Virus record (IMG/VR): IMGVR_UViG_3300046011_000595
Location: 1-33,934 of that record
Source of the DNA: a virus
Direction: 5' to 3' (one strand)
DNA length: 33,934 nucleotides
The position numbers and the translations under genes are program-made. Below the pieces are notes generated by a model. That model ran no database searches. It had not been told where the DNA came from and worked only from the letters and a program-made list of their open reading frames with translations. Positions 7,283 to 29,326 of the stretch are shown here, in pieces. The stretch's first letter is position 1. The number at the start of each line of letters is the position of its first letter.

Positions 7283-7533
7283 GTCGGCAAGCCTTAACCC
7301 CTACTAATGTTCCGGCGAGCGCTTCGGCTATATCTACGCCTACGCTACGCACCGGAGATCTTTATTACAACACTACTACTGGACTCATGGTATATGACGG
7401 AGCAGCTTGGCAGCAGGTCAGCTCCGGCGCTGCTACTGAGATAGACGCGGGTGTGTTTGATAGTATTGCGCCATATAACGGCGGCGATCCGACTACAACG
7501 GCAACACAGACTTATGACGGGGGTACTCCATAA
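7279..7533 (+). CDS. Small minor tail protein with GDLYYN/YDG bead
   Basis: 84 residues from a GTG start overlapping the previous stop; an in-frame upstream ATG lies inside the preceding gene and is less likely. The core TGDLYYNTTTGLMVYDGAAW is a short beta-hairpin module common in phage fibres; variants occur in this window at 11002 and 29968. The C-terminus is acidic, ending in YDGGTP. It is TAATG-coupled to the next fibre gene. It probably works as an adaptor or subunit in the tail tip. Confidence 0.6.
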   Translation: MSRQALTPTNVPASASAISTPTLRTGDLYYNTTTGLMVYDGAAWQQVSSGAATEIDAGVFDSIAPYNGGDPTTTATQTYDGGTP

Positions 7534-8276
7534 TGGCAGTAGTAACGCAAATTCAGATCCGGCGCGGAACTGCCGCTCAATGGACTTCAACAAATCCTAC
7601 TCTCGCAGCTGGAGAGTTTGGGTTAGAGACAGATACGCTTAAAGTCAAAATTGGCAACGGCTCTACCGCTTGGACTTCGCTTGCTTATCAAGGAGCCGGC
7701 ACAGTAACAAGCATTACTGCTGGAACTGGACTCTCCGGCGGAACTATTACCGCTACCGGAACAATAGCGATAGATACCGCTACTACGGTAGATCTCACTA
7801 CGGCGCAAACTCTTACCAATAAAACACTTACAACACCAACGATCACTCTCTCTACTTCAACAAATAGCGCAGAAGGTCGTATTGCTTGGGATAGCACCAA
7901 TGACAAAATCATAATGGGTGACGGATCTAGCACTAAAGAATTTGCTTCTTCTACCTTGGCGTTCAACGCACAAACCGGAACTACCTATACTTTTGTTTTA
8001 GCCGATAAAGATAAATTGGTTACTGCTTCGAACGCGTCAGCGCAAACTTACTCAATCCCTACAAACGCTTCCGTTGCTTACCCTATCGGCACACAAATAA
8101 ACATTATTCAAATCGGCGCAGGGCAAGTAACTATCAACGCGGTTACTAGCGGAACTACTACGATTTCTAGCACCGGAGCCACCGCTACGGCTCCCAAGCT
8201 GCGCGCACAATTCTCATCAGCGACTTGCATTAAAGCAAGTACCGATCTTTGGTATGTAGTAGGAGATATTGCCTAA
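7533..8276 (+). CDS. Tail fibre with Mtd-like N-terminal domain
   Basis: 247 residues. The N-terminus (VTQIQIRRGTAAQW, LAAGEFGLETDTLKVKIGNG) matches the short attachment domain found at the N-terminus of many phage fibres, including Bordetella phage major tropism determinant. A GTGLSGG/TLTNKTLTTP shaft follows, and the C-terminal domain is a paralogue of the end of the 6209-7282 protein. It is a likely receptor-facing fibre. No reverse transcriptase or variable/template repeat pair is visible, so there is no sign of a diversity-generating retroelement. Confidence 0.75.
   Translation: MAVVTQIQIRRGTAAQWTSTNPTLAAGEFGLETDTLKVKIGNGSTAWTSLAYQGAGTVTSITAGTGLSGGTITATGTIAIDTATTVDLTTAQTLTNKTLTTPTITLSTSTNSAEGRIAWDSTNDKIIMGDGSSTKEFASSTLAFNAQTGTTYTFVLADKDKLVTASNASAQTYSIPTNASVAYPIGTQINIIQIGAGQVTINAVTSGTTTISSTGATATAPKLRAQFSSATCIKASTDLWYVVGDIA
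7965..8276 (+). repeat. Duplicated fibre C-terminal domain, copy 2
   Basis: Partner of 6977-7282. It starts NAQTGTTYTFVLADKDKL and ends DLWYVVGDIA, with the conserved SVAYPIGTQINIIQIGAGQV core. Confidence 0.75.
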
Positions 8277-22676: not shown

Positions 22677-23039
22677 ATGAATATCACAGTTAAGGGTAAT
22701 GTCGGACAAGATCCGGAGTTTAAGGTAAGTAAGTCAGGCACACAGGTTTGTTCTTTCTCGCTGGCATACACGCCACGCAAAAAGCAAGGCACCGAGTGGA
22801 TAGACGGAGAAACAATGTGGTTCCGCGTAGTTCAGTTTGGCGAAAAGGCTGAGCAGCTCGCGGATCTAATTGCGAAAGGTGACGCGGTGGTAGTAGTAGG
22901 ATCTCTCTCGCAATCCACCTACCAAGCCAAAGACGGATCCGAAAAGACAAGTCTCGAAATAACGGCTACCGATGTAGGAGTATTGCCGAAAAGAACACAA
23001 AGTATCCGAAGTAGCCGGAAGGAAGATGTGCCTTGGTAG
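22677..23039 (+). CDS. ssb: Single-stranded DNA-binding protein
   Basis: 120 residues. Typical SSB OB-fold: N-terminal MNITVKGNVGQDPEFKVSKS, TMWFRVVQFGEKAEQLADLI, KGDAVVVVGSLSQSTYQAKDG, then a short linker and the acidic hydrophobic tip EDVPW, which is used to recruit partner proteins. The length is shorter than bacterial SSB because the linker is only about 20 residues. It serves phage replication and recombination. Confidence 0.93.
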   Translation: MNITVKGNVGQDPEFKVSKSGTQVCSFSLAYTPRKKQGTEWIDGETMWFRVVQFGEKAEQLADLIAKGDAVVVVGSLSQSTYQAKDGSEKTSLEITATDVGVLPKRTQSIRSSRKEDVPW

Positions 23040-23411: not shown

Positions 23412-24110
23412 ATGAATATAGAGAAGGTAGCGCTGGACTCGATCCGCGAATATCACAACAACCCACGCAAAGGCAACACAACGCTAATTGCCGAGTCACT
23501 TTCGACTTACGGACAATACAAGCCAATTACAGTAAATAAAAGATCCGGAGAGATCCTTGCCGGTAATCACACTTACCGAGCCGCTAAAGAACTCGGTTGG
23601 TCGGAGATCGATGTTGTTTATGTTGATGTAGATGAAACTACGGCTGCCAAGATAGTAGCCATAGATAATCGCTCGGCAGATCTAGGTCAATACGATAACG
23701 AAAAGTTAGCAGCTCTACTAGAAACTTTACCTGAGTTAGACGGATCCGGTTATACGCTGGATGAGTTTGACGCACTAATTGCCGACATACAAGAAGAAAC
23801 AACTCCGGAGTTATCTAAGTCTGCTTTCTCTCAGGTAGAAGTAGGAGAGACGGGGCAAAGCGGAACCCGGTATATCGAGACGCTGGCTGAGTATGGCGAG
23901 CGCTACAATCAAAGAGCAACTCGTATGCTTATGGCGGACTTTCCGCCTGAGATCTATGTGTGGCTTATTGATAAACTTATCTTTGTGCGAAATACGCATA
24001 ATCTAACAAGCAACGGAGATGCCATAGTAAAAATGGCAGAGATAATCTCAGGGGAGAGCGCGCCACATGAGTCAAATCAAGATAGCGGATCTACCGATAC
24101 ACCGAATTAA
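23412..24110 (+). CDS. ParB/Srx-domain protein heading the DNA-modification operon
   Basis: 232 residues from ATG 23412; a longer open frame begins inside the previous gene and is not preferred. ParB-type N-terminus: IREYHNNPRKG, ITVNKRSGEILAGNHTYRAA (the GNHTYRA box replaces the GERRxRA of chromosomal ParB), VVYVDVDETTAAKIVAIDNRS, then a YTLDEFDALI segment and an extra C-terminal helical domain. There is no separate CTP-binding partner. In phages such proteins are found with base-modification genes and methyltransferases. It overlaps the dioxygenase gene by 44 bases, so a role in targeting or regulating modification, or a nuclease role, is plausible. Confidence 0.8.
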   Translation: MNIEKVALDSIREYHNNPRKGNTTLIAESLSTYGQYKPITVNKRSGEILAGNHTYRAAKELGWSEIDVVYVDVDETTAAKIVAIDNRSADLGQYDNEKLAALLETLPELDGSGYTLDEFDALIADIQEETTPELSKSAFSQVEVGETGQSGTRYIETLAEYGERYNQRATRMLMADFPPEIYVWLIDKLIFVRNTHNLTSNGDAIVKMAEIISGESAPHESNQDSGSTDTPN

Positions 24111-24945
24111 GCGAGTTCTATCAGAAGAACAAGCAAGCGAGTTGGTAGGCACAGTAGTTCCTGATTACGCGCCTAACTGCGAAGAAGCAGGTATATGGGT
24201 CGATGACGATACGGAAGAAATTGTTTTTGTCTATTTCCCGATGCCTGATGAAGTGAATATTTTGCGCAAGGCAGTTCTCAACATTAAGTATGGAGAGACT
24301 ATTCGCCAATCAACCGGACTCAAAAATAAGTCACGCACATTCGGTATGGCTCCGAGAAAGATCTATCAGAAGCGCGAGAGCTGCCGCCCTACTACGCTGG
24401 CACAAGAACAACCTATGGAACACGCAGTATTGGTGAAGTTTGCTGAGAAGTTCGCAGATATGTATAAAGAGTTCGCGCCACACTTATACGAAAACGACAA
24501 GAAAAACTTGGCTGACGCTGGACTTGATGATGAGTGGAGAATGACCGATGACGCGTTATGGACTTCCGGCGTAGTCAATAAGTCTTCTACGCTGCCTTAT
24601 CACCGAGACGGCTTTAACTTTGCTACTTGGTCCGCTATGCCGGTAATCCGAAAGAATATGGCTGGTGGTTATCTAACGCTTCCGGAATATAACTTTACTT
24701 GCTCATGCCGAGACGGGTGGGTAACTTTCTTTGCGGGATATAAGTATGTTCATGGCGTTACGCCTATGAGTCCGAAGACCAAAGACGCATACCGATACTC
24801 GGTAGTTTATTACGCCCTACGCGGCATGAAAGATTGTTTTACTTACGCGGTTGAAACTGCTAAGGCAAAAGAACGCCGGACCGCTCGCGAAGATAAAATG
24901 GCAGCAGTTCTTAAAGGCGAAGCGGAAGCACCCGTATTTAGATAA
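24067..24945 (+). CDS. TET/JBP-type 2-oxoglutarate/Fe(II) dioxygenase, DNA 5-methylpyrimidine hydroxylase
   Basis: 292 residues. Core jelly-roll motifs: H179-x-D181 in LPYHRDGFNF, a second metal His229 in YVHGVTP, and Arg243 in AYRYSVVYYALR for 2-oxoglutarate. The upstream GLKNKSRTFGMAPRK and the SSTLPYHRD order match phage TET/JBP proteins rather than AlkB or prolyl hydroxylases. TET enzymes oxidise 5-methylcytosine and JBP enzymes oxidise thymine, both in polymerised DNA; which base is used here cannot be told by eye. It sits in one operon with a kinase, an aGPT-PPlase-like protein and a PLP enzyme, which suggests the hydroxymethyl base is then hypermodified. Confidence 0.83.
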   Translation: MSQIKIADLPIHRIKRVLSEEQASELVGTVVPDYAPNCEEAGIWVDDDTEEIVFVYFPMPDEVNILRKAVLNIKYGETIRQSTGLKNKSRTFGMAPRKIYQKRESCRPTTLAQEQPMEHAVLVKFAEKFADMYKEFAPHLYENDKKNLADAGLDDEWRMTDDALWTSGVVNKSSTLPYHRDGFNFATWSAMPVIRKNMAGGYLTLPEYNFTCSCRDGWVTFFAGYKYVHGVTPMSPKTKDAYRYSVVYYALRGMKDCFTYAVETAKAKERRTAREDKMAAVLKGEAEAPVFR

Positions 24946-24962
24946 CGCAAGGGGAAGGCAAC

Positions 24963-26018
24963 ATGAACAATCTAAAGGAAGGCTTAGATTTCCGCCTACC
25001 GCAATACCGATACGATGTATTTCTTGATTTCTATGAGTTTCACTTAAAGTATCGCGCACATCCCGGTTGCGTCTATTACCTAATGCCCTATCTCCGGGAT
25101 CGCTACGGCTGGGATAACGAAGCAGCTCTATGGTTTGCGTTTATCAACGGCAATACGCAGAACCCGGTTACAAGTCTAATTCTCCACCGGAGATTTCCGG
25201 ATAAAGGTCAATGGCTGGATCTAGTTAAGTTCTATAAAGAAAACTATGAGCGGCTGGAGTTTGATACCGATAGGCGCTATCACAAGAAGTCTATGCCGGC
25301 AGCGATAGAGAGCTATCTTTCGCTGGTCGGTCCGGACCAATGGGATTTCTATACTGCTACGGCGCAACGGGGCTTCGGGGCGATGTGGAGCGCTGCTACT
25401 TCGATCTCAACCTTCGGGCGCTTATCGGCTTACTCCTATCTTGAATATGTGCGCATTATGGGTATAGATTTCGATTGTGACGATTTGATGTTGGCAGATC
25501 GAGACGGCTCGCGCTCGCATAGGAACGGCTTATGTATCGTCAGCGGACTCGATCATTACGATTGGCACAAAAGCAACCCTACTTTTGACGGGAACTACCC
25601 GCCGGAACTGATTGCTTCGCTCGAAACTATGGGCGCACAGATCCTTGCCGATATGAAGAAGCGAGCAGCTGGAAAGGATTACGAAAGAGATGTCTCTTAC
25701 TTTACGCTGGAGTCGGCACTCTGCACTTACAAGTCATGGCACCGACCAAACCGCCGATATCCTAATGTCTATAACGATATGTTATTCAATCGGATTAGAA
25801 AGAACGAAGCAGCTTGGCCCGAAGAAGATCTCTCGGTATTTTGGGAAGCGCGAAAGCATTACTTACCGGACTATCTCCGACTCGAAGATAACCCAAAAGA
25901 TCTCGGACTCAACCCAAGAAAACAAAATCACTATCTCACTACCGGTCAGGTAATTATGATGAACCGGGATTATCCCTACTACAAGAATGAATATAACGAT
26001 GAATACGATCTTTCCTGA
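24963..26018 (+). CDS. aGPT-PPlase-like protein, putative hypermodified-base pyrophosphorylase
   Basis: 351 residues; the ATG follows AAGGGGAAGG. It shows an all-helical, DNA-glycosylase-like pattern: FYEFHLKYRAHPGCVYYLMP, ALWFAFINGNTQNPVTSLIL (62-67 NGNTQN), GFGAMWSAATSISTFGRLSA, SHRNGL (185-190), and YFTLESALCTYKSWHRPNRR near the end. I recall this as the alpha-glutamyl/putrescinyl-thymine pyrophosphorylase group (clade 2) predicted in hypermodification operons by Iyer and colleagues. These enzymes are proposed to displace pyrophosphate from phosphorylated 5-hydroxymethyl bases with an amino-acid or amine nucleophile. The assignment rests on the pattern and on context with the TET/JBP and kinase genes. 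Confidence 0.7.
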   Translation: MNNLKEGLDFRLPQYRYDVFLDFYEFHLKYRAHPGCVYYLMPYLRDRYGWDNEAALWFAFINGNTQNPVTSLILHRRFPDKGQWLDLVKFYKENYERLEFDTDRRYHKKSMPAAIESYLSLVGPDQWDFYTATAQRGFGAMWSAATSISTFGRLSAYSYLEYVRIMGIDFDCDDLMLADRDGSRSHRNGLCIVSGLDHYDWHKSNPTFDGNYPPELIASLETMGAQILADMKKRAAGKDYERDVSYFTLESALCTYKSWHRPNRRYPNVYNDMLFNRIRKNEAAWPEEDLSVFWEARKHYLPDYLRLEDNPKDLGLNPRKQNHYLTTGQVIMMNRDYPYYKNEYNDEYDLS

Positions 26019-27048
26019 GCAGACCATAGACCGCTCGGTAATGCGGTGGGAAGATTACACATACACTCTCACGCCATTTGAGCAACATCAAGGCTTATGG
26101 TGGAAGCGCGAAGACTACTTTGCCCCGCTTGGATACGGCGGACCCAACGGAAGCAAGCTGCGCCAATTATTATTTCTAACAGATCAATATGTGGCAAAAG
26201 GTGGCAACGCTGGACTAATCACCGGCGCGAGTGTTTTATCTCCGCAGCTCTCGATGAGCGCGTTGGTATCTAAGCATTATGGACTCACGCCTACGCTAAT
26301 ATTAGGAGCGACCAAGCCGGAAACGGCAATCAAGCACGAAAATGTCTATATCGCCGCCGCAGCTGGAGCAGAGTTTATTTATACGCCCGTAGGCTATAAC
26401 CCGGCTCTTCAACGCGCAGTAAAGCAATACTCCGAGTCCGAGCGCTATAAAGATCATTACCGCTTGTGCTATGGGATTACGACACCGGAAGACGCTACCG
26501 ATGACGATATCCGAGCGTTCCACGAAGTAGGTGCGTATCAAGTCAAGAACCTGCCGCCCAACCTGACCACGCTAGGTATGACGGCGGGTTCCTGTAACTC
26601 TTGCGTATCGGTGCTATACGGAATAGCCAAGTATCGCCCCGCAGACTTAGAACGCGTTATCTTGTTCGGCATAGGTCCGACCCGGCTTAACTTTATCGAA
26701 GAAAGATTACGCAGGATCGAGAACGCTACCGGCATAGCCATACTGGATCTATTCCGCCGCAAATATCATCATCACCAAGATCTCGAAGCAGAACATCAAA
26801 CCGGTGGAGAGATCCTTATCGAACATTACGATCTTCACCATACCAAGTTCTCCGGCTATCAGGACAAAATGCCCTTCGAGCTGAGAGATAAGTCAATATC
26901 GTTTCACCCAACTTACGAAGGAAAGGCGCTTACATATATGGATCGCAATAGGGGAATGTTCGAGTGGTATCACGAACCTGACGGGAAAGCAGCATTTTGG
27001 ATCGTAGGCAGCCAACCGAACCGGGAGATAGTCGAGCGAGCGTTATGA
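25987..27048 (+). CDS. Fold-type II PLP-dependent enzyme (D-cysteine desulfhydrase / ACC deaminase-like)
   Basis: 353 residues, overlapping the previous gene by 32 bases; ATG 25999 is an alternative start. The PLP lysine is K57 in GGPNGSKLRQL, the GNKxRKL motif of the ACC deaminase/D-cysteine desulfhydrase branch. LITGASVLSPQLSMSALVSK replaces the usual QSNH region, and GMTAGSCNSCVSVLYGI (198-214) is the phosphate-binding loop. Such enzymes carry out beta-elimination, replacement or deamination on amino acids. Between aGPT-PPlase-like and kinase genes it may tailor the amino-acid adduct on the base or supply its amine. It is unlike the fold-type I decarboxylases reported in other thymidine-hypermodifying phages. 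Confidence 0.78.
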   Translation: MNITMNTIFPEQTIDRSVMRWEDYTYTLTPFEQHQGLWWKREDYFAPLGYGGPNGSKLRQLLFLTDQYVAKGGNAGLITGASVLSPQLSMSALVSKHYGLTPTLILGATKPETAIKHENVYIAAAAGAEFIYTPVGYNPALQRAVKQYSESERYKDHYRLCYGITTPEDATDDDIRAFHEVGAYQVKNLPPNLTTLGMTAGSCNSCVSVLYGIAKYRPADLERVILFGIGPTRLNFIEERLRRIENATGIAILDLFRRKYHHHQDLEAEHQTGGEILIEHYDLHHTKFSGYQDKMPFELRDKSISFHPTYEGKALTYMDRNRGMFEWYHEPDGKAAFWIVGSQPNREIVERAL

Positions 27049-27581
27049 AGACTATTTACCTAATCGGCGCACCGGGATCCGGCAAAACAACTCTCACCGA
27101 AGCCCTTACTCGGAACTGGATCGAAGTAGCCAAGCACGATGATCCGGTAAAGTGGAGAGAACATCAGACTCCTTACGGAACGGCTATCTCGCTGGGCTGG
27201 CTACGCCCTACCTTCGGGGGAACCGACACATTGGGAAATGCCGCAATACTGGAGATTGAGCCTTGGTATCCGACAATAAATCATGACATTGTGTATGGAG
27301 AAGGTGACCGCTTAGCCAATAGGCGCTTCTTCGATCTAGCAATTATGTATGGAGAGTTCCACTTGTTTTACCTAGATACTCACCCGGAGAGAGCTGCGCA
27401 ACGGCGTAAGTCAAGAGCTGCGATTACCGGTAAAGAGCAGAACCCGTCATGGGTCAAGGGTAGAGAGACCAAGCACCGTAATTTAGCGCAAGAATATAAT
27501 GCGACATTTATCCCGGATGCCTTGACTCCGGAAGAAGGCGCAAGCATAATTCGCGAAGTCGTATTTCCTACATTACAGTAA
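27045..27581 (+). CDS. P-loop kinase, putative 5-hydroxymethyl-base DNA kinase
   Basis: 178 residues from ATG 27045 (ATGA overlap; upstream in-frame codons lie inside the PLP gene). MKTIYLIGAPGSGKTTLTEA holds the Walker A motif at 8-16. SLGWLRPTFGGTD, DIVYGEGDRLANRRFF and FYLDTHPERAAQRRKSRA provide the nucleoside-kinase-type lid and base contacts. Kinases of this form were shown (Lee and colleagues, 2018) to phosphorylate 5-hydroxymethyl-uracil in phage DNA as the activation step for hypermodification. Its substrate here could be 5-hydroxymethyl-uracil or -cytosine. Confidence 0.75.
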   Translation: MKTIYLIGAPGSGKTTLTEALTRNWIEVAKHDDPVKWREHQTPYGTAISLGWLRPTFGGTDTLGNAAILEIEPWYPTINHDIVYGEGDRLANRRFFDLAIMYGEFHLFYLDTHPERAAQRRKSRAAITGKEQNPSWVKGRETKHRNLAQEYNATFIPDALTPEEGASIIREVVFPTLQ

Positions 27582-27585
27582 ACAC

Positions 27586-28077
27586 ATGGCAGGAAAAAAA
27601 CCGCGTAAAGTGCCGGATCCGGAGATTATTGACCGGGAACTCGCAGTAGTCGAGTTACGGAGAACAGGGGAAACTTGGGATCGAATAGCGAAGGTAGTTG
27701 GCTACGCGAACGCAGCAGGGGCATACAAGGCTTACAAGCGCGCCTTATTGCGGACCCTACAACAACCTACCGAAGAAATGCGGGATCTCGAATTAGACCG
27801 GCTGGACCGGCTACAAAGGGCATACTGGAAGCGAGCCATAGACGGGGAGACGCGAGCTGCGGACTTTATCCTGCGCGTAATAGATCGCCGCGCCAAGATC
27901 TTGGGCTTAGACGCTCCACAGAAGATACAAGCGGAAGTGGTGAATTATGACGGAAGCAGCAACATTGACTCCGACATCGAACGAATTATCCGATTACTCG
28001 ACCAAGTGGATCAGAGCCGCCCGCTACAAGTGGAGAGCGGAATTAGCGAGAGCGGAACAATTACCACCGGAGAGTGA
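27586..28077 (+). CDS. terS: Terminase small subunit
   Basis: 163 residues. The N-terminal HTH region (AVVELRRTGETWDRIAKVVG, GAYKAYKRAL) binds the packaging site, DLELDRLDRLQRAYWKRAID is the oligomerisation helix, and FILRVIDRRAKILGLDAPQK is the end typical of actinophage and related small terminases. The last 43 codons overlap the large subunit gene in another frame. ATG at 27586 follows the kinase stop directly. Confidence 0.8.
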   Translation: MAGKKPRKVPDPEIIDRELAVVELRRTGETWDRIAKVVGYANAAGAYKAYKRALLRTLQQPTEEMRDLELDRLDRLQRAYWKRAIDGETRAADFILRVIDRRAKILGLDAPQKIQAEVVNYDGSSNIDSDIERIIRLLDQVDQSRPLQVESGISESGTITTGE

Positions 28078-29326
28078 TTGGCATATTTGGCTTTATATGG
28101 CTGGTCGCGGTGCTGGAAAGACTCGAACGGCGGCTGAGTGGCTGGCATGGGAAGCAATACAACAACCGGGAACGCGTTGGGCAATAGTCGCGCCTACCTT
28201 CTCTGACGCGAGAGATACCTGCGCCGAAGGTGAGTCAGGCGTAATCTCGATCTTGCGTAGATACAAAATGCTTAGCAGCTGGAACCGATCTATCGGAGAG
28301 ATCCTATTGCGTAATGGATCTCGGATAAAGTTATTCTCAGCCGATCAGCCGGATCGCTTTCGTGGTCCGCAACATCATGGCGCTTGGTGTGATGAGTTAG
28401 CGGCATATAGATACTCAGACGCTTGGGATCAATTACAGTTCGGATTACGCTTAGGCGATAAGCCACGCATTATTGTTACTACTACCCCGCGCCCTACCCC
28501 GTTGATCCGAGCGCTCGCCAACCGAGATGACGGCTCAGTAGTAATCACTCGCGGATCTACTTTCGATAATGCGGCTAATTTAGCGCCTAGCGCGTTGCTG
28601 GAGTTACAGGCACGATACAACAATACCCGGCTAGGTCGGCAGGAACTATACGGAGAGATCCTTGAAGATGTAGAAGGCGCATTATGGACTAAAGGCTTAA
28701 TAGATCGAAATAGACTAAATAAAGCACCAAGTTTGGCACGAATTGTTGTATCCATAGATCCGGCAGTAACAAATACCAAAGACTCTGACGAAACCGGAAT
28801 AGTGGTGTGCGGATCTGACGCGGCTGGACATGGCTACCTGCTGGGAGATTACTCATTTCGGGGATCGCCGCTTGATTGGGCTTCGAAGGCAGTATCGGTC
28901 TTCGATGAGTTTAAGGCTGACTCGATCCTAGTAGAAGTAAATCAAGGTGGAGATATGGTTACTAGCGTTCTCCAACAGATCCGACTTGGCTTACCGATCC
29001 GGGAAGTGCGAGCGCATGTGGGCAAGAGACTCCGAGCTGAGCCGATAGCGGCTATGTATGAGCAGGGGCGTATTCATCACATTGGCGAGTTCGCGCAGCT
29101 GGAAGATCAAATGACTCTCTGGACTCCGGAAGAAATTAATTCACCGGATCGCCTTGACGCTATGGTTCAGGGTTTTGCGGATCTTCTTGGTACTATTAAT
29201 GTTGCAAATTACTTTGGAGCGCTCGCTAATTTCTGCCGTAAGTGCGGATTACCAATGCCGAAGTCAATGAGCCATTGTAGTAAGTGCGGAACGGCTATGA
29301 TAGCGCCGGATAGTAAGGGAGTATAA
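27947..29326 (+). CDS. terL: Terminase large subunit with C-terminal zinc ribbon
   Basis: 459 residues. ATPase: Walker A GRGAGKT (53-59), DARDTCAEG, and Walker B LWCDELAAYR-like segment at HGAWCDELAAY. Nuclease: VSIDPAVTN, LVEVNQGGDMV and DRLDAMVQG with acidic metal ligands. The last 30 residues (C430-x2-C433 ... C444-x2-C447) are an extra zinc ribbon not needed for the canonical fold. The N-terminus (ELARAEQLPPESDWHIW) is the expected lead-in to Walker A, so the start must lie upstream of it, and the 131-base overlap with terS is real. It cuts concatemers and drives packaging. Confidence 0.93.
   Translation: MTEAATLTPTSNELSDYSTKWIRAARYKWRAELARAEQLPPESDWHIWLYMAGRGAGKTRTAAEWLAWEAIQQPGTRWAIVAPTFSDARDTCAEGESGVISILRRYKMLSSWNRSIGEILLRNGSRIKLFSADQPDRFRGPQHHGAWCDELAAYRYSDAWDQLQFGLRLGDKPRIIVTTTPRPTPLIRALANRDDGSVVITRGSTFDNAANLAPSALLELQARYNNTRLGRQELYGEILEDVEGALWTKGLIDRNRLNKAPSLARIVVSIDPAVTNTKDSDETGIVVCGSDAAGHGYLLGDYSFRGSPLDWASKAVSVFDEFKADSILVEVNQGGDMVTSVLQQIRLGLPIREVRAHVGKRLRAEPIAAMYEQGRIHHIGEFAQLEDQMTLWTPEEINSPDRLDAMVQGFADLLGTINVANYFGALANFCRKCGLPMPKSMSHCSKCGTAMIAPDSKGV

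Follow-up and report, generated by a model that had tools for sequence, protein, structure and literature searches.

A five-gene phage cluster pairing a TET/JBP dioxygenase with ViI-type tailoring enzymes, and its probable role in thymine hypermodification

The IMG/VR virus record IMGVR_UViG_3300046011_000595 (33,934 nt; the whole stretch is called the window throughout) comes from a phage related to those of actinobacteria. Five adjacent genes in it specify a ParB-like protein, a dioxygenase of the TET/JBP type, an amino acid:DNA transferase (ADDT), a pyridoxal phosphate (PLP) enzyme and a P-loop kinase. Our reading, to which we give a probability of about 0.72, is that these genes form a pathway which hypermodifies thymine after replication and ends in a base of the type found in Salmonella phage ViI. 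Along the window the genes are:

23412..24110, + strand: ParB-like protein with a ParB_N domain (PF02195, 2.8e-7), starting with the ATG at 23412
24067..24945, + strand: TET/JBP 2-oxoglutarate (2OG)/Fe(II) dioxygenase (PF12851, above cut-off), the proposed thymine 5-methyl hydroxylase
24963..26018, + strand: ADDT, formerly aGPT-PPlase clade 2 (PF18724, 5.3e-18)
25987..27048, + strand: fold-type II PLP enzyme with K57 (phrog_3650, 4.8e-91), the proposed decarboxylase of a DNA-linked amino acid
27045..27581, + strand: P-loop kinase, Ploopntkinase3 (PF18751, 4.2e-29), the proposed 5-hydroxymethyl-dU (5hmdU) DNA kinase

An earlier note, made from the letters of the window, had presented these genes as a complete five-gene operon for DNA base hypermodification. 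All five are present on the plus strand and are tightly packed, with distances between neighbours of -44, +17, -32 and -4 nt, and the ATG of the kinase gene overlaps the stop of the PLP gene as ATGA. The operon extends beyond these five, however, since the run resumes 4 nt past the kinase gene and continues into the small (TerS) and large (TerL) terminase genes. The set can be called complete insofar as a gene is present for every proposed step, though this is arguable as no role is assigned to the ParB-like protein. Each gene is under strong purifying selection, with a ratio of non-synonymous to synonymous substitution (dN/dS) of 0.025-0.089 against two ~92%-identical sisters, and the five-gene order is seen again in dozens of contigs, for which reasons the arrangement is not a chance observation. 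The ADDT, PLP and kinase genes recur among relatives as a unit, often re-ordered.

The dioxygenase matches Tet_JBP (PF12851) at 40.1 bits against a curated cut-off of 34.9, and its iron triad, formed by the HxD motif (H179, D181) and H229, is invariant across 37 TET relatives, as is the 2OG-binding R243. Its profile matches TET2 and NgTet1, and the AlphaFold model (predicted local distance difference test, pLDDT, 93.0) has its best fold matches in TET2 (Z 19.6), CMD1 (19.5) and NgTet1 (18.5), followed by CcTet (16.3), while other 2OG dioxygenases fit less well (ALKBH3 and FTO, Z 15.1). The label 'queuine tRNA-ribosyltransferase' (phrog_6059) disagrees with the Pfam match, the motifs and the fold of this protein and was rejected as a carried-over misannotation, and the same holds for the label 'terminase small subunit' (phrog_800) given to the kinase (open reading frame 26997-27581). 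Both labels have been copied into many mycobacteriophage records.

The ADDT match (PF18724) scores 66 bits against a curated cut-off of 26.2. Where the earlier note saw an aGPT-PPlase that swaps a phosphate for an amine, the family stands, and the general exchanger gives way to an amino acid:DNA transferase, the function named by Pfam. The protein is 30% identical to ViI orf247 (103 bits), and a hidden Markov model (HMM) of the window-ADDT family scores 368 bits with Montesquieu, 363 with Zemanar, 167 with ViI orf247, 4 with Tonitrus and 2 with M6 gp51. The ADDT profile found no relative with a solved structure by sequence, and bromodomain matches in the PDB (E 0.24 and worse) were discarded as noise.

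The PLP protein has no Pfam match, whereas the other four all exceed curated Pfam cut-offs. At the sequence level its profile picks up ACC deaminase and D-cysteine desulfhydrase, the best fold matches of its model (pLDDT 94.6) are D-cysteine desulfhydrase (Z 24.0, root-mean-square deviation 3.0, 278 aligned) and ACC deaminase (Z 23.8), and the Schiff-base lysine K57 with its surrounding motif is invariant in 25 relatives; together these make it a fold-type II PLP enzyme. It is 38% identical over almost its full length to Vi01_182/orf226 of ViI (230 bits), and its family HMM scores 390 bits with ViI and 17 with M6. The kinase carries the Walker A motif GAPGSGKTT, matches PF18751 at 101.9 bits against a curated cut-off of 27, and its HMM matches the kinase of phage Tonitrus at 139 bits, a protein described as a 5-hmU DNA kinase (PMC11955845). 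NCBIfam gave sub-threshold matches only. The catalytic motifs named in the earlier note are thus real, and Pfam places the 24067 and 24963 proteins in Tet_JBP and ADDT and not in other families; a single hypermodification pathway starting from the TET is likewise supported.

We infer the substrate base, step order, amino acid, product and protective role as follows. The TET/JBP enzyme, perhaps set on DNA by its ParB-like partner, would hydroxylate the methyl group of thymine to give 5hmdU in replicated DNA, and the kinase would then phosphorylate the hydroxymethyl group. The ADDT would put an amino acid in place of this phosphate, O-linked serine being the most likely one by analogy with ViI, and the PLP enzyme would form an aldimine with the alpha-amine and decarboxylate the adduct to 5-(2-aminoethoxy)methyl-dU or a close relative. 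This product, which the earlier note had left blank, is predicted because the PLP enzyme and ADDT are orthologous to those of ViI and not to those of M6. The first three steps are drawn from family membership and genomic context, and the fourth, with the choice of serine, from orthology to ViI and from Lee 2018 and 2022, which reportedly cover both the amino acid that ViI uses and the action of its PLP enzyme as a decarboxylase. Such a cationic base would block nucleases acting at T-containing sites, and the modification would probably hide the phage DNA from bacterial nucleases.

The choice of thymine rests largely on which entry enzymes accompany the tailoring genes. Whole records were searched for the thymidylate synthase family (PF00303), Tet_JBP and C5-cytosine methyltransferases in two sets: 21 large records of the TET group, with a TET seen in 20 and the remaining contig (L026) starting inside the ADDT gene, and 50 further records chosen by ADDT or PLP. 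PF00303 was found in none of the 21. Among the 50 it occurred in 11 and Tet_JBP in 34, both in none and neither in five; it was also not found in the window or in G001, a near-complete sister genome. The complete phages Zemanar and Tonitrus have a TET and lack thymidylate synthase, and Montesquieu, ViI and M6 have a member of the thymidylate synthase family and are absent from the TET matches. ThyX, considered as an alternative hydroxymethylase, was found in none of 26 records. The five ADDT records in which neither enzyme was found (G043, G050, G060, G062 and G064; loci L148, L160, L173, L177 and L179) are either partial contigs or users of a third route to the hydroxymethyl handle.

On the ADDT tree the thymidylate-synthase state has to change three times, and well-supported branches force at least two of these changes; Montesquieu, a synthase phage, pairs with a TET record (support 100/98), but on a long branch. 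TET and hydroxymethylase never co-occur before the same tailoring genes, and we therefore propose that the TET replaces the dUMP hydroxymethylase; in the simplest reading both entry enzymes make the same intermediate, 5hmdU, with the TET making it from thymine within DNA. In the ADDT pathways on record, to our knowledge, a hydroxymethylase of the thymidylate synthase family supplies the starting 5hmdU at the nucleotide stage. The target, which the earlier note gave as thymine or cytosine, can be narrowed to thymine, probably, because the sister and most relatives lack a C5-methyltransferase and the two entry enzymes exclude each other.

Several observations weigh against this account. Few independent events underlie the exclusion, since close kin account for 9 of the 11 thymidylate-synthase records and IMG/VR records are mostly incomplete. 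The kinase closely resembles those of actinophages and is only marginally similar to ViI orf67 (11 bits). C5-methyltransferase matches do occur, in 4 of the 21 large TET records and one of the 50 ADDT/PLP records; the TET of those four phages might act on 5-methylcytosine (5mC), and in the window phage a host methylase could supply 5mC. The typical reactions of fold-type II PLP enzymes are beta-elimination and replacement, so the fold by itself does not predict decarboxylation. The four methyltransferase-bearing large records are G012, G014, G013 and G006 (L188, L189, L190 and L191), and the match is split over two frames in G013 and G014.

We consider it improbable that the pathway starts from 5mC, with a host or undetected methylase making 5mC, the TET converting it to 5-hydroxymethylcytosine, and the kinase, ADDT and PLP enzyme tailoring cytosine. 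The methyltransferase matches in the large relatives speak for such a route, together with the closest folds, TET2, NgTet1 and CMD1, which have structures with 5mC DNA, and a sister cassette which weakly matches the TET-associated glycosyltransferase. However, no C5-methyltransferase was found in the window or its near-complete sister (39,972 bp), every characterised ADDT pathway known to us starts from 5hmdU, and related genomes pair the same ADDT-PLP genes with a thymidylate-synthase-family hydroxymethylase, which is assigned to dUMP and not dCMP via ViI, M6 and Montesquieu. A more credible, though still unlikely, alternative keeps the pathway and changes its product: another amino acid, or another PLP reaction such as elimination or racemisation, would give an undescribed thymine adduct. 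Identities to the ViI proteins of just 38% (PLP, orf226) and 30% (ADDT, orf247) leave room for this, and the fold neighbours of the PLP enzyme, D-cysteine desulfhydrase and ACC deaminase, include no decarboxylases; set against this, both proteins are near full-length orthologues of the ViI pair, and K57 and its motif do not vary. That the genes form no single pathway, and are unrelated accessory genes lying beside the terminase by chance, is very improbable. Distant relatives have the genes in shuffled order, and in some contigs the TET is accompanied by a kinase alone or by a glycosyltransferase-like gene alone, but the translational overlaps, the cohesion of ADDT, PLP and kinase genes through changes of order, the purifying selection on each gene and the replacement of whole cassettes between fixed anchors all argue for joint function. 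We therefore retain the thymine pathway with a ViI-type product as our preferred reading.

The ParB-like protein belongs with the TET end of the cluster. A ParB gene lies upstream of the TET gene at 70 of 79 testable loci and at none of the 11 thymidylate-synthase-type loci. The window protein matches phrog_723 (1.4e-46) and resembles the ParB domain of phage DNA methyltransferases (phrog_498, 2e-33; PADLOC MTase_II, 1.1e-12). Judged by context and similarity, it is likely to be a DNA-binding partner of the TET, and a targeting role is plausible but unproven, given that ParB-like domains also occur in phage DNA methyltransferases (phrog_498). A tandem pair of ParB-like genes stands ahead of the TET gene in L010, L015, L022, L024, L027 and others.

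The genes between TET and terminase vary among relatives, and the frame around them is fixed by three further genes of the window:

22677..23039, + strand: SSB gene (PF00436, 1e-25), the fixed upstream anchor of ParB-TET, the order SSB-ParB-TET being conserved
27586..28077, + strand: small terminase-like gene, TerS (phrog_645, annotated Rnase E, 6e-33), the fixed downstream boundary of the cassette in relatives
27947..29326, + strand: large terminase, TerL (PF03237 and PF17289), a fixed downstream anchor which adjoins the cassette in relatives

Relatives with this SSB-ParB-TET...TerS-TerL frame (loci L040-L116) carry varying cassettes between TET and terminase, and the interval serves as a site at which tailoring cassettes are exchanged for one another. 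Besides the ADDT-PLP-kinase set of the window, at least five occupy it: a second ADDT clade plus kinase, in some cases joined by a DAO-family FAD-dependent oxidoreductase; a kinase alone; and the glycosyltransferase-like types c5+c6, c7 and c9, one of which weakly matches the Pfam TET-associated glycosyltransferase. The ADDT-plus-FAD cassette resembles the N-glycyl/5-aminomethyl pathway that Wen 2024 is said to describe. All of these cassettes suit the capping of a hydroxymethyl group, which supports the TET as the maker of a common handle, and close relatives probably carry different modified bases. We suggest, at somewhat less than even odds, a general scheme in which phage TETs hydroxylate thymine, and not 5mC, in finished DNA at sites chosen together with a ParB-like partner and so take over from the dUMP hydroxymethylase as the entry to amino-acid hypermodification, and a plug-in slot (amino acid with PLP, amino acid with FAD, sugar, or phosphate only) gives related phages of one niche differing DNA coats, some of them with unknown bases.

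The window holds ~34 kb of a ~40 kb phage genome with a siphovirus-like layout, which runs from left to right through tail genes, early genes, SSB, a helix-turn-helix protein, the five genes, and finally terminase and portal. The sister G001 is 88-96% identical to it in DNA across most aligned blocks and is essentially complete, as its ends overlap by 154 bp; about 5.9 kb of G001, from portal to tail tube, is missing from the window. A third copy of the phage region (L207, RGDC01000007.1; 92-93% DNA identity) lies in a contig binned as an Actinomycetota metagenome-assembled genome. This copy and the occurrence of TET relatives in actinophages suggest an actinobacterial host, though a binned virus contig is no proof. 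A protein encoded at window 7533-8276 has an Mtd_N domain, the N-terminal domain of the Bordetella phage major tropism determinant (3e-18).

In the cultured models ViI, M6 and phiW-14, thymidine hypermodification begins before replication with a special dUMP hydroxymethylase. Finding the same downstream enzymes behind a TET, with the entry enzymes never together, yields the testable prediction that phage TETs hydroxylate thymine in DNA; if true, these phages would modify their DNA after replication without altering the nucleotide pool. A large set of uncultured phages has been identified in which the tailoring step varies at one locus among close relatives, and self-contained five-gene sets of this kind could be used to label DNA enzymatically with primary amines.

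There is prior art in Tonitrus, in ViI and in a 2013 prediction, and TET-ADDT-kinase sets have already been published as annotations. In the literature we located, there was no TET-started set with a ViI-type PLP enzyme, no mutual exclusion with the hydroxymethylase and no exchange slot. Iyer 2013 reportedly predicted that phage TETs start complex modifications. Burke 2021 is said to describe phage TETs with a TET-associated glycosyltransferase; in those systems a TET likewise acts on a pyrimidine in DNA and a second enzyme caps the resulting hydroxymethyl group, but the pyrimidine is 5mC supplied by a C5-methyltransferase and a sugar forms the cap.

The 5-NedU pathway of Pseudomonas phage M6 also tailors 5hmdU with amino acids through ADDT-type, kinase and PLP enzymes (SN1/M6, PMC9476957). 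That pathway, however, employs a radical SAM enzyme together with a dUMP hydroxymethylase, and its PLP and ADDT-type proteins are remote from those of the window (17 and 2 bits). An M6-type pathway was rejected for the window, where PLP and ADDT fit ViI and the open reading frames scanned include no radical SAM gene. At its T positions ViI DNA contains 43% 5-NeOmdU ([M+H]+ 302.1), 7% 5hmdU and 50% T, and the route runs through 5hmdU, a 5hmdU kinase and transferases to the cationic 5-(2-aminoethoxy)methyl-dU (PMC6449724). This member of the Ackermannviridae shares with the window an orthologous PLP enzyme and ADDT, plus a kinase, but it makes 5hmdU at the nucleotide level, has a thyA-like gene beside the kinase and no TET match, and its genes are dispersed over a 157 kb genome where those of the window are clustered. 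With a TET in place of a PF00303 hydroxymethylase, the window is a variant and not a member of the ViI-type pathway. Glutamicibacter phage Montesquieu has ADDT, PLP and kinase genes adjacent and in the same order as the window, with HMM scores of 368 and 185 bits, and differs in having a thymidylate synthase/pyrimidine hydroxymethylase and no TET match.

At the other end of the cluster, Rhodococcus phage Tonitrus, with a set of five genes that is described in print as a system for thymidine hypermodification (PMC11955845), and Mycobacterium phage Zemanar (Bclasvirinae) resemble the window in clustering ParB, TET/JBP, ADDT/aGPT-PPlase2 and P-loop kinase near the terminase. Their annotated neighbours include no adjoining PLP gene, unlike the window, and the Tonitrus ADDT is of another clade (the 4-bit match above). 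In the window, then, a front end of the actinophage type (ParB, TET) is combined with a back end of the ViI type (ADDT, PLP).

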